From assembly GCF_003234175.2 (NCBI RefSeq), contig NZ_CP126257.1, forward strand, positions 2,542,001-2,606,000: a stretch of 64,000 nucleotides of DNA, given 5' to 3'. Both the position numbers and the translations under genes were made by a program. The notes beneath the pieces were generated by a model that had not been told where the DNA came from, did no database searches, and saw nothing but the letters and a program-made list of their open reading frames with translations. Origin of the DNA: Curtobacterium sp. MCSS17_007. GTDB taxonomy: Bacteria; Actinomycetota; Actinomycetes; Actinomycetales; Microbacteriaceae. Of this stretch, positions 2,964 to 22,341 are shown one piece after another (the stretch's first letter is position 1; every line of letters begins with the position of its first letter).

Positions 2964-3006
2964 ACGATGACATCCGTGTGTTTCGGTGGTGGGTCGAACA
3001 GGTCAC
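2964..3006 (-). promoter_or_regulatory. GlnR-like box and -10 of the uricase gene
   Basis: Reading the minus strand: GTGAC (3006-3002), GACCC (2995-2991) and GAAAC (2984-2980), each 11 bp apart, then CATCGT (2969-2964) as the -10. The GAAAC begins 15 bp before the -10, and the -10 ends 6 nt before the uricase ATG. Same geometry as the four other boxes in the window. The middle half-site and the -10 are the weakest of the set. Confidence 0.6.
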
Positions 3007-3034
3007 GAGCTGCGTCCCGACCGACGTCCCGGTC

Positions 3035-3088
3035 GTGACCCGGCCGTCGACCGCCCGTAACGACGCGGAAACACCCGTTCCCTAGCGT
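3035..3088 (+). promoter_or_regulatory. GlnR-like box and -10 of the xdh operon
   Basis: GTGAC (3035), GTCGA (3046, degenerate), GTAAC (3057) and GAAAC (3068) lie on an exact 11-bp register. TAGCGT (3083-3088) is the -10, 15 bp after the start of GAAAC. GTAAC-N6-GAAAC is a perfect match to the GlnR consensus gTnAc-N6-GaAAc. The predicted transcript starts near 3095, about 165 nt before the xdhB ATG. Confidence 0.72.
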
Positions 3089-3142
3089 TGCCGCACGGCG
3101 CCCCGTCGCGTCGTCCCCCGCACCGGCACGAAGGAGGTCCCC

Positions 3143-3400
3143 GTGGCGCACCCCACCGCACCCCGGCGGCCCTCGGCATGGAACCGCGGGATGATCGCGC
3201 ACGGCCGACGGTCCGACGGCACCCCCGTCCCGTCCCGCCACCCCGATCGGACCCCTGCATGGACCTCGTCACCGTCCGCACCGTGCGGACACCGTCGCAC
3301 CGCGACGACCTCGCCCTCGCACCCGGTGAGCAGCCGCTCGCCGGCGGCACGTGGCTGTACTCCGAGGAGCAGCCCGGCCTCACCGGTCTCGTCGACCTGA
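3143..3400 (+). CDS. Possible leader ORF overlapping the start of xdhB
   Basis: A strong ribosome binding site, AAGGAGG at 3131-3137, is placed 5 nt before GTG 3143. That GTG opens an 85-codon frame that runs out of frame into the FAD-subunit gene and stops at 3400. The true xdhB ATG at 3259 has no good Shine-Dalgarno sequence. The peptide is Pro/Arg/Ser-rich and resembles no family I know. It could be a leader whose translation is coupled to xdhB, or the strong site may serve only for ribosome loading. Confidence 0.28.
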   Translation: MAHPTAPRRPSAWNRGMIAHGRRSDGTPVPSRHPDRTPAWTSSPSAPCGHRRTATTSPSHPVSSRSPAARGCTPRSSPASPVSST

Positions 3401-4083
3401 CGACGCTGGGGTGGCCCGACACCGAACGGCCGCCGGGCACGCTGCGCATCGCGGCGACGTGCACGATCGCCGCGCTGCTCGGCACCGCACCGGACGCCGG
3501 GTGGCGTGCCTGGCCGCTCGTCGGCCGGTGCGCGAACGCCCTGTTGGCGTCGTTCAAGGTCTGGAACGCGGCCACGGTCGGCGGCAACGTCGCGACCGCA
3601 CTGCCCGCCGGTGCGATCACGGCGCTGCTCGTGACCCTCGACGCCTCGGCCCTCGTCTGGACGCCGGACGGCGGGGAGCGCCGACTCCCGGTCGCCGACC
3701 TGGTCACCGGGCCCCGGGCGACGGCGCTCGCCCCGGGCGAGGTGATCCGGGCACTCGACGTCCCGGAGTCCGCGCTCGCCGCCCCCACCGGGTACCGGCG
3801 CGTCTCGCTCAGCCCGCACGGCCGCACCGGCGCGCTCGTCACCGCCCGGTGGTCCGACACGGGGTCGGTGCTCGTCGTGACGGGGGCGACGCCGCGCCCG
3901 CTCGTCCTCCGGTCGCCCGCCGTCCCCGACCCCGCCGAGCTCGACGCCCGGTTGGCCGCCCACGATGACTGGTACGACGACCCGCACGGCTCCCCCGCCT
4001 GGCGCCGAGCGGTGAGTCGTCGGTTCGCAGCCGAGCTGGTGGCCGAGCGGTCCGCCGTCGTCCGTGCAGGAGGTGCGGCGTGA
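3259..4083 (+). CDS. Xanthine dehydrogenase FAD-binding subunit (XdhB-type)
   Basis: A 274-residue FAD-binding subunit of the xanthine dehydrogenase/CO-dehydrogenase M family, passing electrons from the Fe-S clusters to NAD+ or another acceptor. The FAD diphosphate loop is seen as LAGGTWL near residue 28, and the second conserved loop as [14 protein letters not shown] near residue 111, matching the family's TxGGN signature. The C-terminal CO_deh_flav_C-like region is short. The ATG at 3259 is supported by homology of MDLVTV... and is the first good in-frame start. Its stop overlaps the GTG of the next gene (GTGA, 4080-4083), so the two are translationally coupled. Together with the Fe-S/Mo subunit it should oxidise hypoxanthine or xanthine; related substrates cannot be excluded. 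Confidence 0.87.
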
Positions 4084-6893
4084 GGTTCGTGGTGGACGGC
4101 CTGGCGGTGGACGCCGAGCCGCAGCCCGGTCAGGTGCTCCGGACCCTGCTCCGCGAGCACGGCGTGACGAGCGTCAAGAAGGGCTGCGACGCCGGAGACT
4201 GCGGCGCCTGCTCAGTCCTCGTCGACGGCGTGCCCGTGCACGCCTGCATCACACCGGCGCACCGCGTCACGGGCCGGACCGTGACCACCGCGGCCGGGCT
4301 CGGCACCCCGGAGGACCCGCACCCCGTGCAGCGCGCCTTCGCCGAGGCCCCCGGGTTCCAGTGCGGCTTCTGCACGGCCGGGTACGTGGTCACGGCGTCG
4401 GCGCTCGACGACGACCAGCTCGGCGACCGGCACCGCGCACTCAAGGGGAACCTCTGCCGCTGCACCGGGTACCGCGCGATCGAGGACGCACTCGACGGCG
4501 TGCGCAACACCGCGTGCGCGAGCGCCGGAGCCGCCGTCGGGACGTCGGTCGCCGCGCCAGCCGCGATGCGGATCGTCACCGGCCGGGAAGAGTACACGCT
4601 CGACGCCCGGCCCACCGAGGCCCTGTTGCACGTCGCGGTCCTCGGCAGCCCGCACCCGCACGCCCGGATCACGGCGATCGACACGAGCGCGGCCGAGGCG
4701 CTCCCCGGCGTGCACGCGGTGCTCACCCACCACGACGACCCCGGGGTGCTGTTCTCCACGGGCCGGCACGAGTCACGGCTCGACGACCCGGACGACACCC
4801 GGGTGTTCGACCGGGTCCTCCGGTTCCGGGGTCAGCGCGTCGCTGCGGTCGTCGCGGACAGCGTCCGGATCGCGGAGCAGGCGTGTGCGCTCCTGCGGGT
4901 CGACTACGAGGTCCTGCCGAGCGTGCACGACGTCGACGCCGCCCGGCGCCCCGGCGCCCCGCTGCTGCACGGTGACAAGACCACCGCGGAGCGCCGCATC
5001 GCCGAACCGGCGCGCAACGTCGTCGCGGCGCTGCACGGCGGGACGGGGGACGTCGAGGCGGCGCTGGCCGCCGCCGCGGCGACGGTCGAGGGCACCTGGT
5101 CGACGGGCCGGGTCTCGCACGCCGCCCTCGAGACGCACGCGACCCGCGGGTCGCTGGACCGGGACGGGAGGCTCGTGCTGCGGACCGCCACGCAGGTCCC
5201 GTTCCTGGTCCGCGACGAGATCGCCCACGTCTTCGGCCTCGACCCGGCACGGGTGCGCGTGGTGGCGAAGCGCGTCGGCGGCGGGTTCGGCGGCAAGCAG
5301 GAGCTGCTGACCGAGGACCTCGTGACCCTGGCCGTGCTGCGGACGGGTCGCACCGTGCAGTACGAGTACAGCCGCCGCGACGAGTTCACCATCGCCCCGA
5401 CGCGCCACCCGATGCGCGTGCGGGTCCGGCTGGGAGCGGACGCCGAGGGGCGCCTCACCGCCCTGCACGTCGACCAGACCATGGACACCGGCGCCTACGG
5501 CAACCACGGTGTCGGCGTCATGTTCCACTCGGTCAGCGAGTCGGTCGCGGTCTACCGGTGCCCGTCGAAGCGGGTCGACGCCGAGTCCGTGTACACGAAC
5601 AACCTGCCGTCCGGGGCGTTCCGCGGGTACGGCCTGGGCCAGGTGGTCTTCGCGATCGAGTCGGCGATGGACGACCTCGCGCGGCGGCTCGACCTCGACC
5701 CGTTCGAGTTCCGACGCCGGAACGTCGTCGTGCCCGGCGACCCGCTCGTCGTCACCGACCCCGACGAACAGGACGACCTGCGGTGGGAGGGCAGCTACGG
5801 TCTCGACCAGTGCCTCGACCTGGTCGAGGACGCCCTGCGCGCACCGCTCCCCGAGGTGCCCGCGATGGACGGCCCCGCCCTCGACGATCCGGCTCCGGAC
5901 GGGTCGGGTGACTGGGCGCACGGCACCGGCATCGCGCTCGCGGCGATCGCGACCATGCCCCCGCGCGGGCACCACGCGCACGTCTCCGTCGAGGCGACCA
6001 CGGACGGCCGCTACCGCATCGGCGTCGGGACGGCCGAGTTCGGCAACGGTACGACCACCGTGCACACCCAGCTCGTCGCGACCGCGCTCGGCACCACCCC
6101 GGACCGCGTCGACGTGCACCAGTCGGACACCGACGCCGCCCGGCACGACACCGGTGCCTTCGGCTCGGCCGGCGTCGTGGTCGCGGGCAGGGCCCTGTAC
6201 GCCGCAGCGCAGGACCTCCGCGAGCAGCTCACCGCGCGTGCGCTGACCCTCGTGGCGGCCCGGACACCGCGCACCGCGTCCGGGGTGCTCGGCCCCGCCG
6301 TCGAGGTCCTGCCGGACGGCGTCCGCATCGGCGACGAGGTCGTCGGACACGCCGAGCTCCTGGCGGAGGGACCGCTCGTCGCACACGCGAGCCACGACGG
6401 CACCCCGCGGTCCCTCGCGTTCACGGTGCACGGCGCCCGCGTCGCCGTGCACCGCCCGACCGGTGAGGTCCGCGTGCTCCACAGCGTGCAGGCGGTCGAC
6501 GCCGGGACGGTCCTGAACCCCGAGCAGCTGCGCGGGCAGGTCGAGGGCGGCGCCGCACAGGCGATCGGCTCGACGCTCTACGAGGAGGTCGTGCTCGACG
6601 ACACCGGCCGTGTCACGACCGACGCGTTCCGGTCGTACCGGGTGCCGAAGATCTCCGACGTGCCGCGCACCGAGGTCCGCTTCGCCGAGACCCACGACCC
6701 GCTCGGGCCGCTCGGCGCGAAGTCGATGAGCGAGGCGCCGTACAACCCCGTCGCGCCCGCCGTGGCGAACGCCGTCCGCGACGCGATCGGGGTGCGGCCG
6801 TACCGACTGCCGATGACCCGGGACCGGGTGTGGGCCCTGCTGCAGGGCGCGACGGCGGGCGCGTCGGACCCGACCGACGCCGGAGGTGCGTGA
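4080..6893 (+). CDS. Xanthine dehydrogenase, fused 2Fe-2S and molybdopterin subunit
   Basis: A 937-residue fusion of the usual small Fe-S subunit and large Mo subunit. Residues about 1-150 hold two 2Fe-2S centres: the plant-type set CDAGDCGAC with a later Cys at VHAC, and the helical-bundle set CGFC...CRC. Residues about 160-930 are the aldehyde oxidase/xanthine dehydrogenase Mo domains, with the GGGFGGKQE molybdopterin loop, GAFRGYG and the late [12 protein letters not shown] stretch in which the Glu fits the catalytic base region. The enzyme hydroxylates purines such as hypoxanthine or xanthine to urate, feeding the uricase next door. The GTG start overlaps the xdhB stop by 4 bp. The order FAD / Fe-S+Mo differs from E. 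coli XdhABC, where Fe-S is separate, and from animal enzymes, where all three are fused. Confidence 0.9.
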
Positions 6894-7885
6894 TGTTCGA
6901 ACTGGCACCGCGCCTCCTGGCCGTCCTCGACGCCGACGAGCCGGTCGTCGTCGCGACGGCCGTGTCGATGACCGGGAGCGCACCGAGCGGCGTCGGGACG
7001 TCGATGGCGGTGCTGCCCGGCGGCCAGGTCGTCGGCACGATCTCGGGCGGCTGCGTCGAGGGATCGCTGTTCGTGACCGCGGAGCAGGTGCTCGAGACCG
7101 GCGACCCGGTGCTCGAGCGGTTCGGGTTCGACGCCGCCCCGGACGACCCGGACGCCCTGTGGGCACCGGCACTCCGGTGCGGCGGTCGGGTCGAGGTGCT
7201 GGTCCGGCGGATCGCTCCCGACGACACCCTGCTCGTCGGGGCCCTGCGCGATGCGGCGCGGGGCGTGCCGACCTCGGTGTCGCTCTCGCTCGAGGCGGCG
7301 ACCCTCGGGGTGGTCGTGACCGCGCCGGACGGCTGTCGCGGGCGCGTCTTCGTCGAGCGGGCGGACCACCGGCCCCGTTGCGTCGTCGTGGGCGCCGTCG
7401 AGACCGCGGTCGCGCTGACCAACGCTGCCGCGGTGCTCGGCTACGCGGTCACGGTGGTCGACCCACGGCCGGTGTTCCTGACCGACGAGCGGTTCCCTGC
7501 GGCCGAGGAGCGGATCGTCGGGTGGCCGACCCGGGTGCTCCGGGACCTCCCGATCGACGGCACGACGGTCGTGGTGGTGCTGTCCCACGACGACCGGTTC
7601 GACGCCGACGTCATCGACCTGGCGCTGCGTCGCGGGGCCGGGTACGTCGGCGCGATGGGATCACGGGTGACACACGAACGGCGGGACGGGGCGCTGCGGG
7701 CGATGGGCACGCCGGACCTCGACCGGCTCCGCTCCCCGATCGGGCTCGACATCGGTGCGGAGACCCCGGCCGAGATGGCCGTCGCGGTCATGGCCGAGGT
7801 GGTCGCCGTGCGTCGGGGTGCCCCCGGCGGCGCCCTGACGGGCGGGGCCGGTCCGATCCACCGGAGCGCGGCGGCCGCGCGCTGA
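6893..7885 (+). CDS. XdhC/CoxI family molybdoenzyme maturation protein
   Basis: A 330-residue XdhC-type chaperone. In studied systems this family binds molybdopterin, helps its sulfuration and inserts it into xanthine dehydrogenase. The N-terminal XdhC/CoxI domain carries GSAPSGVGTSMAV and the conserved SGGCVEG motif. The C-terminal Rossmann-like XdhC_C domain is seen around CVVVGAVETAVAL, VVDPRP and the late GYVGAMGSR stretch. The Rossmann loop here reads GAVETA rather than the commoner GAGHVA-like loop. The ATG at 6893 overlaps the TGA of the Mo subunit by one base, making it the last gene of the xdh operon. It ends 28 bp from the 3' end of the convergent deaminase gene. Confidence 0.85.
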   Translation: MFELAPRLLAVLDADEPVVVATAVSMTGSAPSGVGTSMAVLPGGQVVGTISGGCVEGSLFVTAEQVLETGDPVLERFGFDAAPDDPDALWAPALRCGGRVEVLVRRIAPDDTLLVGALRDAARGVPTSVSLSLEAATLGVVVTAPDGCRGRVFVERADHRPRCVVVGAVETAVALTNAAAVLGYAVTVVDPRPVFLTDERFPAAEERIVGWPTRVLRDLPIDGTTVVVVLSHDDRFDADVIDLALRRGAGYVGAMGSRVTHERRDGALRAMGTPDLDRLRSPIGLDIGAETPAEMAVAVMAEVVAVRRGAPGGALTGGAGPIHRSAAAAR

Positions 7886-7913
7886 CCCGCCGTCCGCACC
7901 GCGCGCGCCCCCG

Positions 7914-9206
7914 TCACACCGGGGTGCGTGCGAGGCGCTCCGTCAGCCGCGCCGCGATCTCGCGCTCGTCACCGGTGACGAGCCGGAAGTCCCGGACCAC
8001 CACGCGTCCGCCGACGACCACGTGCCGGGGTCGTCGCCCGGGCGATGCCCAGAGCAGCCCCGCGACCGGGTCGGCCACGCCCGCATCGGCCACCCCGGAC
8101 ACGTCCCAGACGCAGAGGTCACCGGCGGTGCCCTCGCCGAGGTGCCCGAGCTCCGGGCGACCGAGGCCCGCCGCCGACCCCTCCGTCATCATGCCGAGCA
8201 CCTGGCGAGCCGGGAGCTGCGGCCCGACGAGCGCCGACACCTGCATCGCCAGCCGTCCGTCCGCGAGCAGGTGCCCGGCGTCGTTGCTGCCTCCGCCACT
8301 CGTCCCGAGCCCGACCGGGATGCCCGCCGCCGTGAGCTCCGCGACCGGGGCGATCCCCCACCCCATCGGCACGTCGCAGCCCGGAGCGTGGGTGGCGGTC
8401 ACGCCGGCCGCAGCGAGGCGGGCGACCTCGTCGTCGGTGACGTCGCACAGGTGGGCGATCGTGACGTCCGGTGCGAGCCACCCCCACTCCTCGAGCAGGT
8501 CCAGCGGTCGCCGGCCGTACCGTTCGAGCGCGATCGCGGTGTCCACCTGCTCGTTCGCCTGCGTGCGTCGCCGGAGTCCGTACCGCGCGGCGACCTCGCC
8601 CAGCGCGCGGAAGGTCGCCTCGCCGTCGGAGTGGACCCCCGCCGGCCCCACCGCCAGCTGGAGGCCGCCGTCCGGGTCCACCCCGCCGACCGCCCGCTCG
8701 TGCAGCAGGCCGGTCGCGATCGCGTCCGCCGACGCCGCGGCACGGCCCGGGTCGTCCCGGGCCGACCCGCGGACGAACACGAGCCGTCCGCCGAGTCCGC
8801 GCACCGCGTCGACCGTCGCTGCGGCGAGCGCCACGGTGTCCTCCGCGCTCGCGTCGGACGGCCAGTTCAGGTGGTGGTCGGCGATCGTCGTGACGCCGGA
8901 CAGGAGGCCCTCCGCCGCTCCGGCAGCCGCCGCGAGTCCGTACAGCTCGGCATCGTGCCCCGCGCGGCCGTACGCCGTCGCCATCGTCGGCAACCACTCG
9001 GCCATGGGCACGCCACGCGTGCCCGGCAGGGTGCGGAACGCGGTCTGCAGCAGGTGGTGGTGCGCGTTCACGAGGCCGGGCGTGACCACGCAGCCCGACG
9101 CGTCGAGCGTGGTCACGAGGTCGCTGCCGTCGTCGAGGACGACGTCGCCCTCCCGCTCGGTGCGAGGGTCGACGAGGACGCGCAGGGCACCGGTGACGGT
9201 CAGCAT
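7914..9206 (-). CDS. 8-oxoguanine deaminase-like amidohydrolase
   Basis: A 430-residue amidohydrolase-superfamily enzyme of the guanine/8-oxoguanine deaminase and chlorohydrolase branch. Metal and substrate motifs in order are PGLVNAHHHLLQ (HxH near residue 67), DHHLNWP near residue 110 (like the DHH motif of 8-oxoguanine deaminases), the H of HLCD near 250, and GTSGGGSNDAGHL with the catalytic-region Asp near 308. It is predicted to deaminate an oxidised purine or similar N-heterocycle and release ammonia. The ATG at 9206 lies 6 nt after a TAGAAC -10 with a well-formed GlnR-like box, so the mRNA is probably leaderless. It is convergent with the xdh operon. Hydroxytriazine or isocytosine substrates remain possible. 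Confidence 0.8.
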   Translation of the reverse strand: MLTVTGALRVLVDPRTEREGDVVLDDGSDLVTTLDASGCVVTPGLVNAHHHLLQTAFRTLPGTRGVPMAEWLPTMATAYGRAGHDAELYGLAAAAGAAEGLLSGVTTIADHHLNWPSDASAEDTVALAAATVDAVRGLGGRLVFVRGSARDDPGRAAASADAIATGLLHERAVGGVDPDGGLQLAVGPAGVHSDGEATFRALGEVAARYGLRRRTQANEQVDTAIALERYGRRPLDLLEEWGWLAPDVTIAHLCDVTDDEVARLAAAGVTATHAPGCDVPMGWGIAPVAELTAAGIPVGLGTSGGGSNDAGHLLADGRLAMQVSALVGPQLPARQVLGMMTEGSAAGLGRPELGHLGEGTAGDLCVWDVSGVADAGVADPVAGLLWASPGRRPRHVVVGGRVVVRDFRLVTGDEREIAARLTERLARTPV

Positions 9207-9212
9207 GCCCGA

Positions 9213-9255
9213 GTTCTAACAGGCCGCTGTTTCCGGGGCGTGACGAGGACGTGTC
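9213..9255 (-). promoter_or_regulatory. GlnR-like box and -10 of the deaminase gene
   Basis: Minus strand: GACAC (9255-9251), GTCAC (9244-9240) and GAAAC (9233-9229) in 11-bp register, then TAGAAC (9218-9213) 15 bp after the start of GAAAC. Six nt separate the -10 from the ATG at 9206. All three half-sites match the GNNAC/GTNAC pattern, making this one of the best boxes. Confidence 0.72.
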
Positions 9256-9304
9256 GGCGCTGCCCCACGTGGTCGACGCGGGAGCGGGTGGGTACGCTGC
9301 TCTG

Positions 9305-10750
9305 GTGCCGCGCAGACCCTGGTCCCTCACGGCGGATCCGCGGGTCCGGGCCGTCGCCTTCCTGATCCTCGCTGTCTGGGGCGTGTACCAGTGCACCTGG
9401 AACCTGCTCGGCGCGAACGTCACCGGTGACGAGGCGATCTACGTGCGCTCGGGCTGGGCCTACGTGCACGGCGACCTCAGCACGAACCGTGAGCACCCGC
9501 CGTTCGCCAAGTACCTGTTCGGCGCCGCTCAGCTCGTCTTCGGGCAGGGCGTCCTCGGGCCACGCATCGTCGTCGCCGTCCTCGTGCTCGCCGCCGGTGC
9601 GGCCGTGTTCCTCTGGCTCCGCGTGCACATCGGCTTCTGGGCCGGGCTGACCGCGGCGGCCCTCTGGCTGCTGACGCCCCGCGACGGCGCCGGTTCCGGA
9701 GCACGCCTCGACCGCCTGGCCCTGCTCGACCCCGTGATGGCGGTGTTCGCGCTCCTGGCCCTCGGGGCCGGGTGGGCGTGGGTCCGCTCGGGGCGGTGGT
9801 GGCTCGTCCCGGTGTCCGCGACGCTGATGGCGATGTCGGTCACCTCGAAGGTGTCGACCGTCGTCCTGCTGCCCGCGTTCCTGGTGCTCCCGCTCCTGCA
9901 CCGCGACGTGCGCCGGCTCGTCGTCGGTGGGCTCGTGTGGGCAGGCACGTTCGGCCTCGTGTTCGTCCTGCTCTACCTGCCGATGGGCATCCGCTCGGCC
10001 ATCACCTACATGATCGACTTCCAGGACGGGCAGAACACGAACGGCCACCCGATCAGCATCGACGGGCACGTCTTCACGTTCGCACCCTGGTGGGCCGACC
10101 TGCGCTTCTTCGGGGACGGGGTCGGCGCGGTCATGGTCGTGGTGATCGTCGTCGGACTCGTCGCGGCCTTCGTCGTCCGGCCGGACCGGCTGGTCGCGTA
10201 CCTCGGTACCGCGCTCGGGCTGCTCGTCGTCTTCTACGTGGTCGTCGCGCGGATCGCACTGCCGACGTACTACGAGGCGTGGATGCCGCTCACCCTGCTC
10301 CTCACCGCGATCGGCTACGCGCGGCTGGCGTCGCTGCGGCCCCGTGTCTGGTGGTCGTCCCTCGCCACGGTGCTCGTCCTCCTGAGCGTCGTGCCCGCCG
10401 CGCGGGTCAGCCTCGTCGCCTGGACCGAACGACCGACGGGGATCGCTCGGGTCGACGGCTGGCTCCGGTCGCAGGGCATCGACGGCGGCCAGGTCCTCTT
10501 CGTCTCGGCGACACCGACGCTCTACGATCCGTACTTCCTCGGCCGGGGCACGATGGACCCCGACGCCGGCCCGTTCGTCGCCGTGGTCGTCGGCAACGAC
10601 GTCCGCTTCCCCGCGCCCGGCGCCGTGGCGACGTTCCTGCAGCAGGACCGGGGGTCACTCCGGACGACCGACCTCGACGGGCTGCGGGTGTACGCGCCCG
10701 AGGACGGCGAGATCCGCAACGAGGGCGGGGTGCTCGGCCTCACGCGGTGA
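9305..10750 (+). CDS. GT-C fold membrane glycosyltransferase (PMT/ArnT-like)
   Basis: A 481-residue polytopic membrane protein of the dolichyl-phosphate-mannose or ArnT-like mannosyltransferase superfamily, which moves a sugar from a polyprenyl-phosphate donor to a cell-envelope acceptor. The first extracytoplasmic loop carries the acidic catalytic motif TGDEAIYV (near residue 39), followed by REHPPFAKYLFG, the family HPP motif. Roughly ten hydrophobic segments follow, and the C-terminal 80 residues form a small soluble domain. GTG 9305 is chosen because TACGCT (9293-9298) ends 6 nt upstream, the leaderless spacing seen often in this window; GTG 9251 would add 18 residues upstream of the first membrane segment. 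Acceptor unknown. Divergent from the deaminase gene. Confidence 0.8.
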   Translation: MPRRPWSLTADPRVRAVAFLILAVWGVYQCTWNLLGANVTGDEAIYVRSGWAYVHGDLSTNREHPPFAKYLFGAAQLVFGQGVLGPRIVVAVLVLAAGAAVFLWLRVHIGFWAGLTAAALWLLTPRDGAGSGARLDRLALLDPVMAVFALLALGAGWAWVRSGRWWLVPVSATLMAMSVTSKVSTVVLLPAFLVLPLLHRDVRRLVVGGLVWAGTFGLVFVLLYLPMGIRSAITYMIDFQDGQNTNGHPISIDGHVFTFAPWWADLRFFGDGVGAVMVVVIVVGLVAAFVVRPDRLVAYLGTALGLLVVFYVVVARIALPTYYEAWMPLTLLLTAIGYARLASLRPRVWWSSLATVLVLLSVVPAARVSLVAWTERPTGIARVDGWLRSQGIDGGQVLFVSATPTLYDPYFLGRGTMDPDAGPFVAVVVGNDVRFPAPGAVATFLQQDRGSLRTTDLDGLRVYAPEDGEIRNEGGVLGLTR

Positions 10751-10790
10751 CGGCGGGACTGCTCGGCGCCACGTGGCAACGGTCGGCACG

Positions 10791-11405
10791 CTACGGACGG
10801 CGGGCCGGCGCGGTCGTGCGGAGCCCGCTGCCGCGCCGTTCGAGGTCGGCCAGCGCGAGGATCGTCTCCGGGTCGCGCCGCCGCCACCGGTCCACGACGT
10901 CGACGCCGAGCCGACCGGCCGCGTCGCGCGTCGTCAACGCCCGGACCGCGAGCAGTTCCGTGCCGTCCGGACGGCCCGCCAACCGCTGTGTCGCGGACGC
11001 CCGCCGGATGAAGCCGCCGCGGTACCGGCACCAGACCACCACCAGGACGACGACGAGCACCACCGCCAGCGACGTGCCGAGCAGGTGTGCGAGGTGCAGC
11101 GTCTCCTCCTGCTGCTGCGCGCCGGCCGCGGCGATCCGGCCCGCGCTCCGACTCGCGTCCTCGAGCGGGCCACTCACCGACCGCCCGACGAGCGGGACGT
11201 CTCCGAGGGCGCCGGCGGTCTGCCGCAGTTGGTCCTCGAACGCCGACCCCTGCTCCTGGACGCGGCCGCCGATCGCGGCGAGGGAACTGATCGAGGCAGA
11301 CACCGCGCGCCCGAGCAGCACGGCGCCCACGATGCCGGCGACCACGACGAGGTCGAGGAGCACCTGCGCCGCGGTCCGGACGGGTCGGGCGTCGTAGATC
11401 ACCAT
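10791..11405 (-). CDS. Two-TM membrane protein of unknown function
   Basis: A 204-residue protein I do not recognise. It has a membrane segment at residues about 13-35 (LLDLVVVAGIVGAVLLG), an outward-facing Ser/Gln/Gly-rich region of about 75 residues, a second segment near 112-127 (LAVVLVVVLVVVW), and an Arg-rich cytoplasmic tail. The layout recalls small actinobacterial membrane proteins with a loop between two helices. The ATG at 11405 lies 6 nt after TAGGAC and has no Shine-Dalgarno site, so it is probably leaderless. It is convergent with the glycosyltransferase, 40 bp away; a shared role in the envelope is only a guess. Confidence 0.7.
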   Translation of the reverse strand: MVIYDARPVRTAAQVLLDLVVVAGIVGAVLLGRAVSASISSLAAIGGRVQEQGSAFEDQLRQTAGALGDVPLVGRSVSGPLEDASRSAGRIAAAGAQQQEETLHLAHLLGTSLAVVLVVVLVVVWCRYRGGFIRRASATQRLAGRPDGTELLAVRALTTRDAAGRLGVDVVDRWRRRDPETILALADLERRGSGLRTTAPARRP

Positions 11406-11650
11406 GCTCCGGTCCTACCAGGCACGCGGACGACCGCTCGGAGGGGCCCCGCGCCGTCGATCTGCAACCGGACGACGTCCGGCGTCCGACGGTCGCGGCG
11501 GTGGAGCCGGTCGGGGCCGTCGTCGGGATCGCTCACCGGCACGGCGGGCGCGTCCTCCGGGACGACCGGGTGCCGCGCCGGACGGGCCGTCGTGGTCCGT
11601 TCGCCGTCGGAAGCATGCTGTGATGGACGTGCACGTCCGGAGGAAGCACG

Positions 11651-12142
11651 GTGGTGGACATGGGTGACAGTGGTGGGGACAGCGGCTCGCCCCTCGACGT
11701 GATCGGCGCGCTCACGCGGATGGAAGCGGCGGACGCCGCACTGCGGCACCGCCTCCGCGACCACCTGCACGTGTCGGGGAGCGACGTCGTGCTGCTCCAG
11801 TTCGTGGGCCGGGCCGAGGCCGGTGGCCGGACGGTGCGCGTCGCGGACCTGGTGCGCCACCTCGGGCTGAGCAGCCCGGCCGTGACCGCGACGACCCAAC
11901 GACTCGAGCGTGCCGGGCACCTCGAGCGGTCGCCGCACCCGGAGGACCGGCGCAGCCGCCTCATCCGCCTCACCGCGAGCACCCGCGCGGCCTTCACCGC
12001 GGCACTGGACCACACCAACGGGCAACTCCACGAGCTGCTGTCCTCCTTCTCCGACGACGATCGCGCCCGGTTCGTCCACGTCATCGAACGTGTCACCACC
12101 GCTCTCGACGACGGCGCTCCGTCTCCGCCCGCAGCCCACTGA
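11651..12142 (+). CDS. MarR family transcriptional regulator
   Basis: A 163-residue winged-helix regulator of the MarR family. The recognition helix and wing lie at residues about 60-100 (VADLVRHLGLSSPAVTATTQRLERAG, then HPEDRRSRLIRLT), with the characteristic DxRxxxxxLT wing motif. N- and C-terminal helices would form the dimer. GTG 11651 is preceded by GGAGG at 11638-11642 with a suitable gap. It is an orphan: the divergent gene is the two-TM protein and the downstream gene is convergent. Its target and ligand are unknown. A run of 19 C follows 37 bp after its stop. Confidence 0.85.
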   Translation: MVDMGDSGGDSGSPLDVIGALTRMEAADAALRHRLRDHLHVSGSDVVLLQFVGRAEAGGRTVRVADLVRHLGLSSPAVTATTQRLERAGHLERSPHPEDRRSRLIRLTASTRAAFTAALDHTNGQLHELLSSFSDDDRARFVHVIERVTTALDDGAPSPPAAH

Positions 12143-12179
12143 CCGTCCGCGCGGCCGGCAGCGGCACAGCTGTCCCGAG

Positions 12180-12198
12180 CCCCCCCCCCCCCCCCCCC
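12180..12198. repeat. Homopolymer run of 19 C
   Basis: Nineteen consecutive C residues lie between the 3' ends of the convergent MarR and AraC genes. Runs this long are rare even in GC-rich genomes and are prone to slippage in replication and in sequencing, so the exact length is uncertain. Confidence 0.9.
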
Positions 12199-12247
12199 GG
12201 TCATCGGTCACGACCCGACCGATCCGGGTGGCCGACAGCGGTCCGGT

Positions 12248-13201
12248 TCAGCTGCGCCGGAGGGTCTCGCTCGGGTACTCGCCGTACCGTGCGGCGTACG
12301 TGGCGGAGAACCGCCCGGGGTGCGCGAAGCCCCACTCCCTCGCCACGTCGGCCACGTTGGTCGTCGCGGGATCCGCCCGCAGCAGCTCGGTACGGATGCG
12401 CTCGAGGCGCACCTGGCGGATGTAGGCGTTCGGGGACATCCCGAGGACGCGACCGAACGCCGTCTGCAGGGCGCGGAGGCTGAGGTTCGCCAGGGTGGCG
12501 AGATCGGTGCTCGTGATCGGGAGGTGCGCGTGCTCGTGGACGTACTCGGCGACGCGCTTCAGCCGGGCGTTCGCCGGCAGCAGGAGCTCGGGCGGGAGGT
12601 CGGCGGTCGCCTGCGGGTAGAGCTCCAGCAGCGACACCGCCGCGAGCCGGCCCATCTCGGCCTGGAGGAGCGGTGATGCGGCCCGGTCCATCGTGGTCGC
12701 GGAGATGAGGTGCACGGTCTGCCGCCACCGTCGCAGCGCGTCGTCGTCCGGACGGACGGTGTGGTCGAAGCCCGCACGCGAGACCGAGACGCCCCGCTCC
12801 GTCGCGATCTCGACGACCGTCGCACGGTTGACCTGCACGAGGCGTTGCTCGTAGTCCGCGAACGCGAACTCGAAGGAGTGCCCCGGCCACAGCTGCGGGC
12901 GGCCCGGCTCGAGGCGGATCGCGCGCGGACCGACGTCGAGGACCCCGGTCCCCCGGGTGATCCACTGCATGACGAAGTCGTCACCGGCGGGCATCTCGCC
13001 CGTCAGGCGGCCGTCGAACTGCACGGCCCGGAGGGTCATCGCAGCGTCCCCCGCGGCGGCGTACCGGTAGGAGAACGCGGTGTCGGTGGTGTCCGCTTCC
13101 CAGGCCACGCCCGCGTAGGCGGTGGCCAGGGTCCGACGCGCGTCGGTGATGTCGGCGCCGCGTTCGTCGACGCGGATCGGGGCGGGAGTCTGCTCAGTCA
13201 T
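12248..13201 (-). CDS. AraC family transcriptional regulator
   Basis: A 317-residue AraC-type activator. Residues about 1-200 form an effector/dimerisation domain of the AraC-binding-like 14 kind (FAFADYEQRLVQV region), as in activators of aromatic or amine catabolic genes. The last 100 residues hold the two helix-turn-helix units (ITSTDLATLANLSLRALQ; the second around TTNVADVAREWGF) and the signature GFAHPGRFSATYAARYGEYPSE. The start at 13201 gives a full-length protein. No obvious target operon adjoins it, and the downstream neighbour is convergent. The effector cannot be inferred. Confidence 0.87.
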   Translation of the reverse strand: MTEQTPAPIRVDERGADITDARRTLATAYAGVAWEADTTDTAFSYRYAAAGDAAMTLRAVQFDGRLTGEMPAGDDFVMQWITRGTGVLDVGPRAIRLEPGRPQLWPGHSFEFAFADYEQRLVQVNRATVVEIATERGVSVSRAGFDHTVRPDDDALRRWRQTVHLISATTMDRAASPLLQAEMGRLAAVSLLELYPQATADLPPELLLPANARLKRVAEYVHEHAHLPITSTDLATLANLSLRALQTAFGRVLGMSPNAYIRQVRLERIRTELLRADPATTNVADVAREWGFAHPGRFSATYAARYGEYPSETLRRS

Positions 13202-13265
13202 CGTGCTCGAGCAGAAGTGTCACATCCCGACACACCTCATCGGTCGAGGTGTCCGGAACACGTCA

Positions 13266-13871
13266 TCAGGACAGGGCGCTCGAGTCGACGTCGTACACCG
13301 CGATGAGCACGGCCGCTGCCGTCCTCGCAGTGCGGGCCGGCTGCACGGAGCCGTGGATCGCGGCCTCGACCTGTGCGCCCTGCAGGAGCAGCGTCAGCGC
13401 CGGTGCGACGTGGGCGGGGAGTCCCGCGAGTCCGCAGAGCACGGCGACGTGCTGCTCGACCTGCCGGAGGTGGTCGTCGGCGAGCTGCCGGATCACGGGG
13501 TCCCGTCGGCCGAGTTCCCCGTACCCGTTGATGAACGCACACCCTCGGTAGGAGTCGTCCGCGAAGCACTGTTCCAGGTAGGTGAACACCATGAGGAGAC
13601 GGTCCCGGGGGTCCTCCGCCCCCTGCTCCGCCGCAGCGAGGCCGCCCATCCAGTGCTGGTGGCGGTGCTGCAGTGCCGCCACCACGAGTTCCCGCTTCGT
13701 CGGGAAGGCCGCCCGCAACGCGGGACGGCTCACCCGGGCGCCCGCCGCGATGCGCGCCAAGGACACCGGCCCGACACCCTCGGACCCGAACAGGGCGTCC
13801 GCGGCCGCCACGATCGGCTCCGCACCCGCGGAGCGGGCGGGAGGAGCGCTGGTCAGGACGGAGGAGGTCAC
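13266..13871 (-). CDS. TetR family transcriptional regulator
   Basis: A 201-residue TetR/AcrR-type repressor. The N-terminal helix-turn-helix spans residues about 17-60 (VSLARIAAGARVSRPALRAAFPTKRELV), followed by a helical ligand domain whose motifs (YRGCAFINGYGEL) resemble TetR_C_16 or YxaF-like members. The GTG at 13871 is the best start; upstream codons in the same frame look non-coding. It lies 82 bp downstream of a set of three tiny genes on the same strand and could share their transcript. Target unknown. Confidence 0.8.
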   Translation of the reverse strand: MTSSVLTSAPPARSAGAEPIVAAADALFGSEGVGPVSLARIAAGARVSRPALRAAFPTKRELVVAALQHRHQHWMGGLAAAEQGAEDPRDRLLMVFTYLEQCFADDSYRGCAFINGYGELGRRDPVIRQLADDHLRQVEQHVAVLCGLAGLPAHVAPALTLLLQGAQVEAAIHGSVQPARTARTAAAVLIAVYDVDSSALS

Positions 13872-13953
13872 AGGATCCAGGAACAGGTGCCGACCGGAGC
13901 CGACTCGTCGGCCCGTCCGGGGAGCACCCGGGACGCCCCGGGCACGGACGCGT

Positions 13954-14124
13954 TCACGCGGCGAAGAAGTCGGCGTAGGACGGTTCCGCCGGGACGAACA
14001 CGTGCTCGACCTGACCCACACGGGCGGCCACCATCTGCGCGAGCTCGGTCGGCGGGGTCAGGCCACGACGGCGCCACTCGGTCGGGTGGCGGCGGAGGAC
14101 GTCGAGGGAGATCGTGTCATGCAT
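13954..14124 (-). CDS. Tiny hypothetical protein, 56 residues
   Basis: An unrecognised 56-codon gene, MHDTISLDVLRRHP... to ...SYADFFAA. It is acidic/basic mixed and probably soluble, with one likely helix (PPTELAQMVAARVGQ). The ATG at 14124 overlaps the end of the preceding 35-codon gene by 8 bp, which together with good third-position GC argues that it is real and translationally coupled. It may be the third gene of a three-gene micro-operon. No function can be assigned. Confidence 0.55.
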   Translation of the reverse strand: MHDTISLDVLRRHPTEWRRRGLTPPTELAQMVAARVGQVEHVFVPAEPSYADFFAA

Positions 14125-14224
14125 CGGTGCGGTCCTGTTCGGCGATGAGGTGGAGGATGTCGATGGGCTGCGTCAGTGCGAGCTCCGGTGCGAACTCGAG
14201 CGCCGGGGCGGCGGGAGCGCTCAC
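14117..14224 (-). CDS. Tiny hypothetical protein, 35 residues
   Basis: A 35-codon frame (MSAPAAPALEFAPE... to ...HLIAEQDRTDA) starting at GTG 14224, which overlaps the stop of the upstream 71-residue gene as GTGA and runs 8 bp into the next start. The overlap on both sides is the main evidence. The peptide is acidic and Ala-rich, with a Pro-rich N-terminus and a possible C-terminal helix. No family recognised. Confidence 0.45.
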   Translation of the reverse strand: MSAPAAPALEFAPELALTQPIDILHLIAEQDRTDA

Positions 14225-14436
14225 GCGGAGAGCCCCAGGACGACCGCGGCGGACGCGGCGACGGTGACCGAGACGATGCCGGTGGCGGTCGCGGCGAGCA
14301 TGAGCGTGCGCTGACGGGCCTGCTCGCGGACCTCGGAGAACGGGCTGCGCGATGCGACCCGGCGGCTCCGACCGGAGCGTGCGGCGTGCGCGGTCGAGGG
14401 AACCATCAGGGTGTCGGGGGCGGTGAACGTGGTCAC
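14221..14436 (-). CDS. Small single-span membrane protein, 71 residues
   Basis: A 71-residue protein starting at GTG 14436, preceded by GGGAGGG a few bases upstream. The N-terminal 45 residues are polar and Arg/Ser-rich, and the C-terminus is a hydrophobic segment (MLAATATGIVSVTVAASAAV) that should span the membrane once. It leads a putative operon with two even smaller overlapping genes. A TATGGT -10-like box lies upstream near 14500. No known family is recognised; the gene faces away from the GlnR-controlled amidohydrolase. Confidence 0.55.
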   Translation of the reverse strand: MTTFTAPDTLMVPSTAHAARSGRSRRVASRSPFSEVREQARQRTLMLAATATGIVSVTVAASAAVVLGLSA

Positions 14437-14661
14437 GGGGCCCTCCCTCTCTGGGCCGTCAGCGACCCGGTGTCGTCCGGCGTCTCCGGACGAGATGACC
14501 ATAGGAAGGAAACCGTTCACGACGTGAACGATCCGGGGAAGACGGCGAAACCTGGACAGGAACGGACGCGATCCGCGTCCGAAAGCGGCCAGACGCGTCG
14601 GCAGCCGGTCGGGACGAGCCGCGTGCCGCAGCGTTCCGACCACGGTCACCCGGGGTCCGAG

Positions 14662-14704
14662 GAAACCACGCGGTGACACCCGCGAAACACGCGCATCCTA
14701 GGTT
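14662..14704 (+). promoter_or_regulatory. GlnR-like box and -10 of the 14711 amidohydrolase
   Basis: GAAAC (14662), GTGAC (14673) and GAAAC (14684) at exact 11-bp spacing, then TAGGTT (14699-14704) 15 bp after the last GAAAC start. The -10 ends 6 nt before the ATG, so the transcript is predicted to be leaderless. All three half-sites match the GlnR pattern. Confidence 0.74.
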
Positions 14705-14710
14705 CGCCCC

Positions 14711-16108
14711 ATGACGCAGACCCTGATCCGCGCCGGCTGGGTGCTCACCGCCGCACCGGACGACTCCACCACGCCCGCAGCGATCCGCGACGGCGCCGTG
14801 CTGCTCGACGGGGACCGCATCGCCGCCGTCGGCACCTTCGCCGAGCTGTCCGCCGCGCACCCCGACGCACCGGTCCGCGGGGGCGCGTACGACATCGTCA
14901 CCCCGGGCTTCGTGAACACGCACGGACACTTCAGCGAGGGACTGATCACGGGCATCGGCTCGCAGTACACGCTGTGGGAGTGGCTGACGGCGCTGATCGG
15001 TCGCGTCAACCCGGTGATGACCCGCGAGAAGGCGTACGCCGGCACGGTGCTGCAGGGGATCCAGCTGCTCCGGAGCGGCGTGACGACCGCGAACGACATG
15101 TTCTGCGCGGACCCGATGCCCGACGAGCCGGCCACGCCCGGTGTCGTGCAGGCGCTCGAGGACCTGGGCCTGCGCGGTGTCGTGTCGTTCGGTTCGGGGG
15201 ACATCGACCGCGACTTCGGCGCGACGCCGATCCTCGAGGAGTTCGAGGCCCTGCGCGAAGCCGCCGCCGCCAGCCGCTACAGCACGTTCCGCGTCGGCGT
15301 CTCGTCGATCGGCCGGTACACCGACGACACCTGGCAGGAGCACGTCGACTACGCGGTCGCGGGCGGCCACGGGGTGCACGTGCACTTCCACGAGGTGCGC
15401 GAGGAGGTCACGGCCGCCCGCCAGCGGACCGGACGGACGGCGATCGGCCACGCCGAGGCGACGGGCATGTTCCAGGTCCCGGTGATCGCCGCGCACAGCG
15501 TCTGGGTCGACCGCGAGGACCGTGAGCGCTACGCCGCCAACGGTGTCGGCGTCGCGCACAACCCGGTCGCGAACGGCATCCTCGCCAGCGGCATCGCCCC
15601 GATCGCGGAGCTCCGCGCCCTCGGCGTGCCGGTCGGCATCGGCGTCGACGGCCCGGCCTCGAACGACTCGCAGGACTTCCTGCAGGCGATGAAGACCGCC
15701 GCGCTGCTCGCCCGCGTCCGCGACCTGCAGGCCACGGCGATGAGCGCCCGCGAGGCGTTCGAGACGGGCACGATCGGTGGCGCCCGCGCCCTGCGCATGG
15801 AGGGCGAGATCGGATCGCTCGAGCCCGGCAAGCGCGCGGACCTGGTGGTCTTCGACGGTGACTCCCCCACCCTGGCGAACGTGCACGACCCCTACCAGGC
15901 GGTCGTCTTCGTGGCGGGCAGCCGTGAGGTCCGCGACGTCTGGGTCGACGGCGAGCTGAGCCTCGCCGACGGCGACGTCACGAAGGTCGACGTCCGCGAG
16001 GCGGTGGACCGAGCACGACCCTTGGCGCGTCAGCTGGTCACCGAGGCGGGCCTGGAGCGCCTGTCGGCGCTCACCGGGGGCGCGCTCGACGACACCGAAC
16101 GTCCGTAG
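14711..16108 (+). CDS. Amidohydrolase of the AtzA/TrzN/SsnA deaminase branch
   Basis: A 465-residue metal-dependent hydrolase of the S-adenosylhomocysteine deaminase/chlorohydrolase type. Motifs are PGFVNTHGHFSEG (HxH near residue 73), HVHFHEV (metal His near 220), VIAAHSVW (His near 262), HNPVANGILASGIAP and the C-terminal Asp of GIGVDGPASNDSQD. It should deaminate or dehalogenate an N-heterocycle such as a purine, pterin or triazine. The ATG at 14711 directly follows a -10 box by 6 nt and carries a three-half-site GlnR-like element, which suggests a role in nitrogen supply. It is monocistronic and followed by a hairpin at 16140. The substrate cannot be fixed from sequence. Confidence 0.8.
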   Translation: MTQTLIRAGWVLTAAPDDSTTPAAIRDGAVLLDGDRIAAVGTFAELSAAHPDAPVRGGAYDIVTPGFVNTHGHFSEGLITGIGSQYTLWEWLTALIGRVNPVMTREKAYAGTVLQGIQLLRSGVTTANDMFCADPMPDEPATPGVVQALEDLGLRGVVSFGSGDIDRDFGATPILEEFEALREAAAASRYSTFRVGVSSIGRYTDDTWQEHVDYAVAGGHGVHVHFHEVREEVTAARQRTGRTAIGHAEATGMFQVPVIAAHSVWVDREDRERYAANGVGVAHNPVANGILASGIAPIAELRALGVPVGIGVDGPASNDSQDFLQAMKTAALLARVRDLQATAMSAREAFETGTIGGARALRMEGEIGSLEPGKRADLVVFDGDSPTLANVHDPYQAVVFVAGSREVRDVWVDGELSLADGDVTKVDVREAVDRARPLARQLVTEAGLERLSALTGGALDDTERP

Positions 16109-16139
16109 CGGCGCACACGGGCCGGGTCGGGGACGGACC

Positions 16140-16182
16140 GGACGGGAGGCGGTGCGCACGTCGTGTGCACCGCCTCCCGTCC
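16140..16182. repeat. GGACGGGAGG-type intergenic hairpin, copy 2
   Basis: Arms GGACGGGAGGCGGTGCGCAC (from 16140) and the complementary GTGTGCACCGCCTCCCGTCC (to 16182), separated by a few bases. It lies between the convergent amidohydrolase and ferredoxin-reductase genes and is well placed as a bidirectional terminator. Confidence 0.8.
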
Positions 16183-16206
16183 GTCACACCACAGTTGGAC
16201 GGCCCG

Positions 16207-17160
16207 TCACAGTTCCAGGACCAGGCGCGGGCAGCCGCGCCGGGCGCGCGAGACGCACACCATCATCGTGCGGTCGTCGGCCTGCTCCTCGGGGCTGAGC
16301 ACGGTGTCCCGGTGCTCCACCGAACCCTCGAGGACGGGGGTCTCGCAGGTGCCGCACGTGCCCTCGCGGCACGAGGACAGGACGAAGGCGCCGGCCTCCT
16401 CCGCGACCTCGAGCAGCGTCCGGTCGGCCGGCACGGACACGGTGACACCCGTCACCGCGAGCTCGACCTCGAACGGTTCACCGGGGGCGTCGACGTCGGC
16501 GGCCGGTTCGAACCGCTCGACGCGGACGCTCCCGGCGGGCCAGTGCGCGGCGGCCGACTCGACCGCGTCCATGAGTCCGCGTGGACCGCAGCAGTACACG
16601 ACGGCGTCGCGCGGTTCGGCGAGGAGGCCGATCACGTTCACCCGCGGGTGTTCGTCCGCCGCGGCGAGGACGACCCGGTCGGGGTGTGCCGCGACGAGCT
16701 CGTCGACGAAGGCCATCCGGCTCCGGCTGCGACCCGCGTAGTGGAGCTCCCAGGGCGTGCCGGCGCGTTCCGCTGCATCGATCATCGCCACGAGCGGCGT
16801 GATCCCGATGCCGCCGGCGACGAACACCGCGGGCCTGGTCGGGTCGAAGCCGAAGTGGTTGCGCGGTCCGGCGACCACGACCTCGACTCCGACAACGAAC
16901 CCGTCGTGCACGGCGAGCGATCCCCCGCGGCCGTCCGGTTCCCGGAGCACCGCGATGCGCCAGTGGCCCTCGGTCGTGGTCGTCACGAGCGAGTACTGCC
17001 GCTCGGTGCCCGGCGCGACCTCGAGGTCGACGTGCGCCCCGGGCTCCCAGTCCGGCAGCGGCATGCCGTCGACCGGTGCGAGGTCCAGCGCGACGACGTC
17101 GGTCGCGACGACCCGGCGAGCGGCGACCCGCACGCGGCGACGTTCCGGTGCCGCGGTCAC
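16207..17160 (-). CDS. Phthalate dioxygenase reductase-like FMN/2Fe-2S oxidoreductase
   Basis: A 317-residue electron-transfer protein of the PDR/VanB class. In order: FMN-binding domain with RQYSL (residues about 82-86), NAD-binding domain with GGIGITPLVAMI (about 140), and a C-terminal plant-type 2Fe-2S domain with CREGTCGTC followed by C in MMVCVS. Such reductases feed Rieske-type oxygenases or N-demethylases, but no oxygenase gene lies in this window. The GTG at 17160 overlaps the stop of the XRE-cupin regulator gene by 4 bp, so the regulator and reductase are one operon. It may serve an oxygenase encoded elsewhere, or the oxygenase may have been lost here. Confidence 0.85.
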   Translation of the reverse strand: MTAAPERRRVRVAARRVVATDVVALDLAPVDGMPLPDWEPGAHVDLEVAPGTERQYSLVTTTTEGHWRIAVLREPDGRGGSLAVHDGFVVGVEVVVAGPRNHFGFDPTRPAVFVAGGIGITPLVAMIDAAERAGTPWELHYAGRSRSRMAFVDELVAAHPDRVVLAAADEHPRVNVIGLLAEPRDAVVYCCGPRGLMDAVESAAAHWPAGSVRVERFEPAADVDAPGEPFEVELAVTGVTVSVPADRTLLEVAEEAGAFVLSSCREGTCGTCETPVLEGSVEHRDTVLSPEEQADDRTMMVCVSRARRGCPRLVLEL

Positions 17161-17792
17161 GCGACGACTCCGGTGCTCCGGGCCGCCCCGGCGCGCGGGG
17201 TCTCCTTGACCACGATCATGTGGAAGCGGCTGCCGTCCGCGCTGCACCAGCGGTGCCCGGTCCCGCCGCGGTAGTACGCGGAGTCACCCGGCCCGAGGCG
17301 CAGGGGCTCCTGGCCACGGAGGTCGAGCAGGACGTCGCCGGCGAGCACGGTGAGGAACTCGTCCTCGCGGTGCTCGAAGTAGTCGCCGAGGTCGGTGTTC
17401 TCCCCGGTCCACTCGAGCGGCTCGAAGGCGTGCGGGCCGGCGTGCACGAGGAGTCGCGCCTCACCGCTCGAGAACGGGCCGCGTGCGCCCTCGCCCGCAC
17501 GGATGACCTCGGGGCCCCGGTCGTCCCGGTCCGACCGTTCCGGGGCGCCGGCGGCGAGCAGCTCGACCTGGGTGGTCCCCAGCGCGGCGGCGATCTTCTC
17601 GAGGGACACCATGCTCGCGCGGGAGTGCCCGCGTTCGACCTGGCTGAGGAACGGGTGCGACAACCCGGTCAGCTCGGCGACCTGCACGAGGGTCAGTCGT
17701 GCAGCGCGTCTGCGGGCGCGGATGTGCTCCCCGATCCGCTGGGTCTGGTCGTCGACGACGCGGTCGGTCTCGGTGGTGGTGCCGGTGCTCAC
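17157..17792 (-). CDS. XRE family regulator with C-terminal cupin
   Basis: A 211-residue regulator with an N-terminal XRE helix-turn-helix (residues about 20-75: LTLVQVAELTGLSHPFLSQVERG) and a C-terminal cupin (EDEFLTVLAGDVLLDL; GTGHRW near the end). This architecture (PuuR, SutR, MmyB-like) usually controls amine, sulfur or aromatic use and senses a small ligand through the cupin. GTG 17792 is the natural start. It forms an operon with the downstream reductase and is divergent from the 18004 operon, so it could control that operon from the shared 211-bp region. The GlnR-like box there sits closer to the 18004 side. Confidence 0.87.
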   Translation of the reverse strand: MSTGTTTETDRVVDDQTQRIGEHIRARRRAARLTLVQVAELTGLSHPFLSQVERGHSRASMVSLEKIAAALGTTQVELLAAGAPERSDRDDRGPEVIRAGEGARGPFSSGEARLLVHAGPHAFEPLEWTGENTDLGDYFEHREDEFLTVLAGDVLLDLRGQEPLRLGPGDSAYYRGGTGHRWCSADGSRFHMIVVKETPRAGAARSTGVVA

Positions 17793-17910
17793 GCGCACTC
17801 CTCTCGGCCTGGTGGCGGCGCTCCGGTGCGGTGGTGGGCGGGTCGGACGAGTCCCCGGCCGGAACCGTCGTTCCGGCCGCCCGGTCCGGCCGGGACGGGT
17901 GTCACACACG

Positions 17911-17953
17911 GCAACCGTCTCGAAACGAGAGGGAAACACTGCCGCCCTAGCAT
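17911..17953 (+). promoter_or_regulatory. GlnR-like box and -10 of the 18004 operon
   Basis: GCAAC (17911), GAAAC (17922) and GAAAC (17933) at 11-bp spacing, then TAGCAT (17948-17953), again 15 bp after the last GAAAC start. A leader of about 45 nt precedes the ATG, which has its own GGGAGG site. Just downstream, TTGATGCGATCAA at 17962-17974 is a near-palindrome that could bind a second regulator such as the divergent XRE protein. Confidence 0.7.
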
Positions 17954-18003
17954 CGGAGATGTTGATGCGATCAACATTCTCACACACGATCGGGAGGCTC
18001 CGG

Positions 18004-19305: not shown

Positions 19306-19355
19306 CCCCCTCGCCCCACCACCGCGAACCCGTGACCCGAGAACCCGAGGTGCCC

Positions 19356-22299: not shown

Positions 22300-22341
22300 C
22301 ACCGGGTCGGCCGAGCCGACCACGCAGAGCCGACCAGTTCC

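Follow-up and report, generated by a model that had tools for sequence, protein, structure and literature searches.

We analysed a window of 64,000 nucleotides from Curtobacterium sp. MCSS17_007 (positions 2,542,001 to 2,606,000 of contig NZ_CP126257.1, part of a single-contig genome of 3.31 Mb) and found five promoters of a purine region that share one layout. Direct-repeat half-sites stand in an 11-bp register, read back from the last GAAAC, and in all five cases 15 bp lie between the start of that GAAAC and the -10 element, as an earlier note on this DNA had claimed. The promoters precede a uricase gene, a xanthine dehydrogenase (xdh) operon, two amidohydrolase genes (referred to as deaminase and hydrolase) and an operon beginning at position 18004. 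Judged from the sequence, all five are very probably activated by the nitrogen regulator GlnR, and purine-nitrogen scavenging would thereby be switched on under nitrogen limitation. The promoter elements, numbered within the window, are as follows.

2991 to 3006, minus strand: uricase upstream half-sites GTGAC (3006-3002) and degenerate GACCC (2995-2991)
2980 to 2984, minus strand: uricase last half-site GAAAC
2964 to 2969, minus strand: uricase -10 element CATCGT; ATG 6 nt on (leaderless layout)
3035 to 3072, plus strand: xdh half-sites GTGAC (3035), degenerate GTCGA (3046), GTAAC (3057) and GAAAC (3068)
3083 to 3088, plus strand: xdh -10 element TAGCGT
9229 to 9255, minus strand: deaminase half-sites GACAC (9255), GTCAC (9244) and GAAAC (9233)
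9213 to 9218, minus strand: deaminase -10 element TAGAAC; ATG 6 nt on (leaderless layout)
14662 to 14688, plus strand: hydrolase half-sites GAAAC (14662), GTGAC (14673) and GAAAC (14684)
14699 to 14704, plus strand: hydrolase -10 element TAGGTT; ATG 6 nt on (leaderless layout)
17911 to 17937, plus strand: 18004-operon half-sites GCAAC (17911), GAAAC (17922) and GAAAC (17933)
17948 to 17953, plus strand: 18004-operon -10 element TAGCAT

The published GlnR box, as given in a review, is gTnAc-n6-GaAAc (PMC10704036). The strict form of this box (GTNAC-N6-GAAAC) was present in coding-strand orientation in the xdh, deaminase and hydrolase promoters (3/5). The 18004 promoter carries GAAAC-N6-GAAAC, with no GTNAC among its in-register half-sites, and the uricase promoter carries only GTGAC-N17-GAAAC. 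The description of all five as GTNAC/GAAAC repeats that match the GlnR box is thus loose for the uricase and 18004 promoters and holds strictly for the other three. A good -35 element was sought in the five promoters at spacers of 16 to 18, and the best candidate matched TTGACA at three of six positions.

We compared these counts with 200 simulated windows, generated by a first-order Markov model based on the 64-kb window. The strict box occurred three times in the window, each time in one of the three promoters named above, against a simulated mean of 0.12 and maximum of 2; a relaxed box with the -10 element (GNNAC-N6-GNAAC-N10-TA) occurred four times, against a mean of 0.015 and maximum of 1. 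These values bear out the earlier view that the layout is unlikely to have arisen by chance. Single half-sites of 5 bp are frequent (430 GTNAC in the window) and the uricase site is degenerate; both points speak for a chance resemblance picked by eye in GC-rich sequence. The simulated windows, the backward-pattern controls and the conservation of half-sites and spacing amid diverged surroundings refute it for the xdh, deaminase, hydrolase and 18004 promoters, and as an account of the five sites we give it next to no credence.

In the whole genome, with the same pattern read backwards as the control, 16 strict boxes were found against one, and 11 relaxed boxes with TA against one. Seven of the 16 strict matches are oriented towards nitrogen genes, namely xdh, the deaminase, the hydrolase, glnA, amtB, pbuX (xanthine permease) and an NCS1 permease; the other nine either are not or could not be judged, and the matches as a whole are not scattered at random over the genome, a possibility that the earlier note had raised. 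Seven of the 11 relaxed matches likewise fit (xdh, the deaminase, the hydrolase, the 18004 gene, a branched-chain-type ATP-binding cassette (ABC) binding protein, a UraD-UraH fusion and pbuX). The route from xanthine to allantoin is thus divided between two places on the chromosome, which have the promoter layout in common. The five sites are real; the regulon is larger than the five promoters first described, and its geometry is not special to the cluster. When the pattern with the -10 element was applied to 60 genomes of the genus, our own included, 204 matches were obtained against 3 in the control, with at least one match in 59 of the 60; with the spacing rule, an otherwise loose motif thus becomes a fairly specific means of scanning genomes.

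The genome gave 13 winged-helix matches, and by sequence one of them is a clear GlnR. This orthologue matched PF21695 (GlnR_1st, the N-terminal domain specific to GlnR) at 144.9 bits (cut-off 27) and PF00486 (the OmpR-type winged helix) at 98.4 bits, and FGGTRTVDVHVRRLRAKLG was identical in the three alignments shown. Its best relatives in the PDB were 8hih and 8hig, of which we take 8hih to be the GlnR activation complex of Shi 2023. Boxes with the same geometry were present before both canonical targets in the genome itself, glnA (L007/L124) and amtB (L008/L125), which the earlier note had proposed would support GlnR as the regulator. Thirty genomes of the genus were searched and 29 loci obtained for each gene. 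GTAAC-N6-GAAAC-N6-GTSAY-N6-GAAAC-N10-TASCCT preceded glnA in 28 of 29 loci (L161 was not judged, its gene start being off the expected place), and GTTAC-N6-GAAAC-N17-GAAAC-N10-CARACT preceded amtB in 29 of 29.

We extended the comparison to 52 further genomes with a glnA match, whose assignment to the class Actinomycetes is by inference, and fetched 29 loci. A recognisable first box was present in 23 of them, and in these the second b-site position (the GAAAC half-site, preceded by the a-site) was followed by TANNNT at exactly 10 bp in 21, at 11 bp in one and at neither distance in one. Among the six loci that the pattern did not match, four (L242, L256, L258 and L260) carry variant half-sites with, by eye, the same spacing, while L244 and L261 show no promoter and are apparently coding sequence. 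Since 21 of 23 promoters keep the same distance, the geometry looks like a general rule of GlnR promoters. These results also bear on the idea that a regulator encoded in the cluster (AraC-type, MarR, TetR-like or helix-turn-helix (HTH)-cupin) binds the repeats. Genes for AraC-type, MarR and HTH-cupin proteins do lie inside the region, and a palindrome at 17959 to 17977 suggests local control of one operon, but the same repeats and geometry recur about 1 Mb from the cluster, before glnA and amtB, and at glnA across the class, and the palindrome core, with its single exact match in the genome, leaves the other four promoters unexplained. A local regulator of all five promoters was rejected because glnA and amtB share the layout, and we consider local binding of the repeats very improbable.

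Conservation was examined in the best 80 of 110 loci with an xdh subunit, of which 20 belong to the Curtobacterium clade (two of these carry the title "Microbacteriaceae bacterium"); the xdh FAD (flavin adenine dinucleotide) subunit of the window is 95% identical to its counterpart in Curtobacterium sp. MCSS17_008. Deaminase, hydrolase and uricase matches below 80% identity were dropped before counting, as was a deaminase match at a contig edge that covered only residues from 366 on (L057). Upstream of xdh, G[AT]AAC-N10-TA was present in 20 of 20 clade loci. When no -10 element was assumed and the gap was counted from the first recognisable box, TANNNT was found at gap 10 in 19 loci and at no other gap between 0 and 30; in the one remaining locus (L061) the GAAAC closest to the -10 element sits, by eye, 22 bp further on. 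The distance of the box from the gene start ranges from -126 to -228 across the clade, and its conservation is therefore not plain sequence similarity. When 18 xdh promoters were anchored and compared, the fraction of the majority base was 0.98 at site columns against 0.68 elsewhere, although anchoring fixes part of the site columns, which makes the unanchored spacing count the better test.

The last half-site and the -10 element were likewise kept at their set distance in the deaminase (GAAAC-N10-[TC]A in 9/9 orthologues), hydrolase (10/10) and 18004 (5/5) promoters. The register was tested on the five window promoters, as offsets 22 and 33 at glnA and amtB are set by anchoring. At offset -11 from the last half-site, GNNAC was found in 17 of 18 xdh, eight of nine deaminase and 10 of 10 hydrolase promoters, and in one of the eight uricase relatives that have the promoter; at -22 it was found in nine of 10 hydrolase promoters and all eight of these uricase promoters, and at -33 in six of 18 xdh promoters. 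All three half-site positions were kept in the five 18004 relatives. The outermost half-sites are not all conserved, with GNNAC at -22 in only one of nine deaminase and one of 18 xdh promoters. Averaged over the five promoters, the fraction with GNNAC was 0.79 at offset 11, 0.61 at 22, 0.31 at 32 and 0.11 at 33, against a median of 0 over offsets 5 to 44.

At the level of the family, a GlnR match (E <= 1e-40) was present in 95 of 100 genomes. The motif occurred 1267 times against 507 in the control in these 95, with an excess in 82 of them, and 55 times against 44 in the genomes without a GlnR match, which number only five, four of them of 0.9 to 1.5 Mb. Several small genomes with GlnR likewise gave high counts for the backward control.

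Several observations weigh against regulation of these genes by GlnR, or limit its reach. The uricase promoter is the weakest of the five: its middle half-site is degenerate, its -10 element is poor, matching TATAAT at three of six positions, and the promoter is kept in eight of 16 relatives. In the other eight, the sequence directly upstream reads by eye as the end of a gene, presumably one for hydroxyisourate hydrolase. Nine of the 16 strict matches (L001, L002, L003, L004, L005, L006, L009, L014 and L015) and four of the 11 relaxed ones (L030 to L033) could not be clearly assigned to the promoters of nitrogen genes and were not counted as promoters; those at L005 and L032 lie near what we presume to be glycine-cleavage genes (on the gcvP side; 322 bp ahead of a gcvT-like gene). 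The pbuX box with TAGCGT is kept in eight of 19 orthologue loci, two of which (L218 and L233) are incomplete and were not judged. A strict site was sought before glnR itself, as a sign of autoregulation, and none was found in L126. In the family, 13 of the 95 GlnR-bearing genomes have no excess of the motif, and G109, which has no GlnR match, does show one (25 against 8). Outside the Curtobacterium clade, 59 of 60 xdh loci carry no box within 260 bp upstream, two of the 60 (L077 and L119) having almost no upstream sequence; the single box, in L062, has no -10 element and was taken as chance. The link to xanthine dehydrogenase consequently looks like an addition made at the level of this lineage.

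The geometry suggests how activation would work. Under nitrogen limitation, GlnR would bind head-to-tail on the 11-bp repeats. If the -10 element is taken as -12 to -7, the b-site GAAAC would span roughly -27 to -23, with the a-site at roughly -38 to -34; together they would stand in for the -35 element and recruit RNA polymerase to a TANNNT exactly 10 bp on. The xanthine permease, the NCS1 permease, the deaminases, xanthine dehydrogenase, uricase and UraD-UraH would then be induced together with glnA and amtB. A GlnR array at the position where a -35 element is lacking agrees with class II activation and with the GlnR tetramer described for the complex of Shi 2023, in which the DNA-binding domains sit head-to-tail on a four-site promoter and GlnR bridges to RNA polymerase (PMC10704036).

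In the uricase, deaminase and hydrolase promoters, 6 nt separate the -10 element from the ATG (2958-2963, 9207-9212 and 14705-14710, respectively), and the spacer is 6 to 7 nt in all 27 relatives of these genes that have the site. Leaderless mRNAs are therefore predicted for the three genes. We lean modestly towards a broader statement, that across the class Actinomycetes the last GlnR half-site stands exactly 15 bp before the -10 element and replaces the sigma -35 contact at a fixed register, and that several purine mRNAs of Curtobacterium are leaderless and GlnR-dependent. If this is true, sequence alone would suffice to tell GlnR targets that are activated from those that are repressed, and whole regulons could be predicted with few false matches. 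An explicit 15-bp rule was not met in the literature searched, which lacked Shi 2023, Tiffert 2008 and Sola-Landa 2013, so that the rule may already be in print. A search for GlnR together with Microbacteriaceae returned a single paper, a lake community study.

A different regulator of the OmpR type could in principle be the main binder, as repressor or activator, with GlnR in a secondary role. The 12 winged-helix matches besides GlnR supply candidates, and the protein at L017 presumably resembles MtrA. MtrA recognises and competes for GlnR sites in Streptomyces (PMC12323332, PMC10704036). However, the five sites depart from the MtrA consensus GTAACCNNNNNGTAACC (PMC12323332) and end in GAAAC as GlnR boxes do, a repressor would not need a fixed distance of 15 bp to the -10 element, and GlnR is described as having the decisive role where the two proteins compete (PMC10704036). 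We therefore think it improbable that MtrA or a relative is the main binder, although by analogy MtrA may co-bind at these GlnR-type sites.

Activation by GlnR would place the purine genes in an extended version of a known system, and not in a new kind of system. In Mycobacterium smegmatis, the GlnR box is Gn2AC-n6-GnAACA (PMC3662644), and chromatin immunoprecipitation targets of GlnR include glnA, amtB, permeases for xanthine/uracil and for cytosine/purine/allantoin, and a putative allantoicase (PMC3662644, PMC4222082, PMC4617892). Uricase, transthyretin, OHCU decarboxylase and guanine deaminase rise in that species when nitrogen is limiting (PMC4617892), and its growth on guanine and uracil depends on GlnR (PMC4222082); GlnR at purine permeases, and induction of uricase and its partners by nitrogen limitation, are thus already known there. 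The system described here is alike in its matching box and in having glnA, amtB, purine permeases and uricase among the genes concerned. It differs in that separate boxes precede the genes for xanthine dehydrogenase, for the enzyme resembling 8-oxoguanine deaminase and for two more amidohydrolases, one of which leads the 18004 ABC operon. Autoregulation of glnR is reported in mycobacteria (PMC10704036), unlike the absence of a strict site before glnR here.

In Streptomyces coelicolor, a-b-a-b boxes of the form gTnAc-n6-GaAAc-n6-GtnAC-n6-GAAAc are arranged head-to-tail, two of them at glnA (PMC10704036, citing Tiffert 2008). The glnA promoter of our genome (L159) is similar, with GTAAC-N6-GAAAC-N6-GTCAT-N6-GAAAC, whereas in the purine promoters the number of half-sites is often two or three, and GAAAC or GACAC takes the position of the a-site; in addition, the distance to the -10 element is made explicit here. 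In effect, scavenging of purine and related ring nitrogen in the genus Curtobacterium would come under the global nitrogen regulator. The genes served by the five promoters, with the family matches obtained, are listed below.

2013 to 2957, minus strand: uricase (factor-independent urate hydroxylase; TIGR03383, 361.9 bits, cut-off 168.4)
3259 to 7885, plus strand: xdh operon (family-level matches, below equivalog cut-offs), with FAD subunit (3259-4083), Fe-S/Mo (iron-sulphur/molybdenum) subunit (4080-6893) and XdhC-like maturation factor (6893-7885)
7914 to 9206, minus strand: amidohydrolase, nearest family 8-oxoguanine deaminase (NF006055, 243 bits, below the cut-off of 532)
14711 to 16108, plus strand: amidohydrolase of ATZ/TRZ and deaminase type (PF01979, 189 bits; NCBIfam matches below cut-off)
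18004 to 24687, plus strand: 18004 operon, with cytosine-deaminase-like amidohydrolase (18004-19305), ABC ATPase (19356-20123), ABC permease (20123-20992), putative binding protein (21112-22299), FAD oxidoreductase (22421-23806) and creatininase-family hydrolase (23803-24687)
17157 to 17792, minus strand: HTH-cupin regulator, divergent to the 18004 operon (PF13560/PF01381 and PF07883)

The amidohydrolases are putative deaminase- or hydrolase-type enzymes, placed by family, and a Pfam search with the putative binding protein returned no match. The claim that all five promoters precede genes releasing nitrogen from rings is roughly right, the exception being xanthine dehydrogenase, which oxidises the ring and releases no nitrogen. 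Two further regulator genes lie in the region, encoding an AraC-type (12248-13201) and a MarR (11651-12142) protein.

The 18004 operon carries a second candidate operator just past the -10 element, at the expected transcription start.

17959 to 17977, plus strand: perfect 8-3-8 palindrome ATGTTGAT-GCG-ATCAACAT

Its core, GTTGATNNNATCAAC, is the one with a single exact match in the genome. The 19-bp palindrome was present in five of five relatives, and the same five loci contain the HTH-cupin gene. On the simplest reading, the palindrome would be an operator for a local repressor, and its binder is probably the neighbouring HTH-cupin protein. With GlnR sites and a local palindromic operator combined, expression of the 18004 operon would depend on a shortage of nitrogen as well as on the operon's own substrate.

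Boxes were also noted at transporter genes elsewhere in the genome. At L122 (5797-5851 and 2859, minus), the branched-chain-type ABC binding protein gene and a nearby permease gene on the opposite strand both have GNNAC-N6-GNAAC upstream, with TA at the set distance only at the binding-protein gene. At L001/L127 (3128, minus), a peptide-type ABC transporter gene is preceded by a strict box that has no TA at 15 bp. The strict box ahead of the NCS1 (allantoin-type) permease (L010, 1501-1516, minus) is, by eye, followed by TAGCGT 26 bp (15 + 11) past the start of the b-site, which is one register step further, with a degenerate half-site between them.

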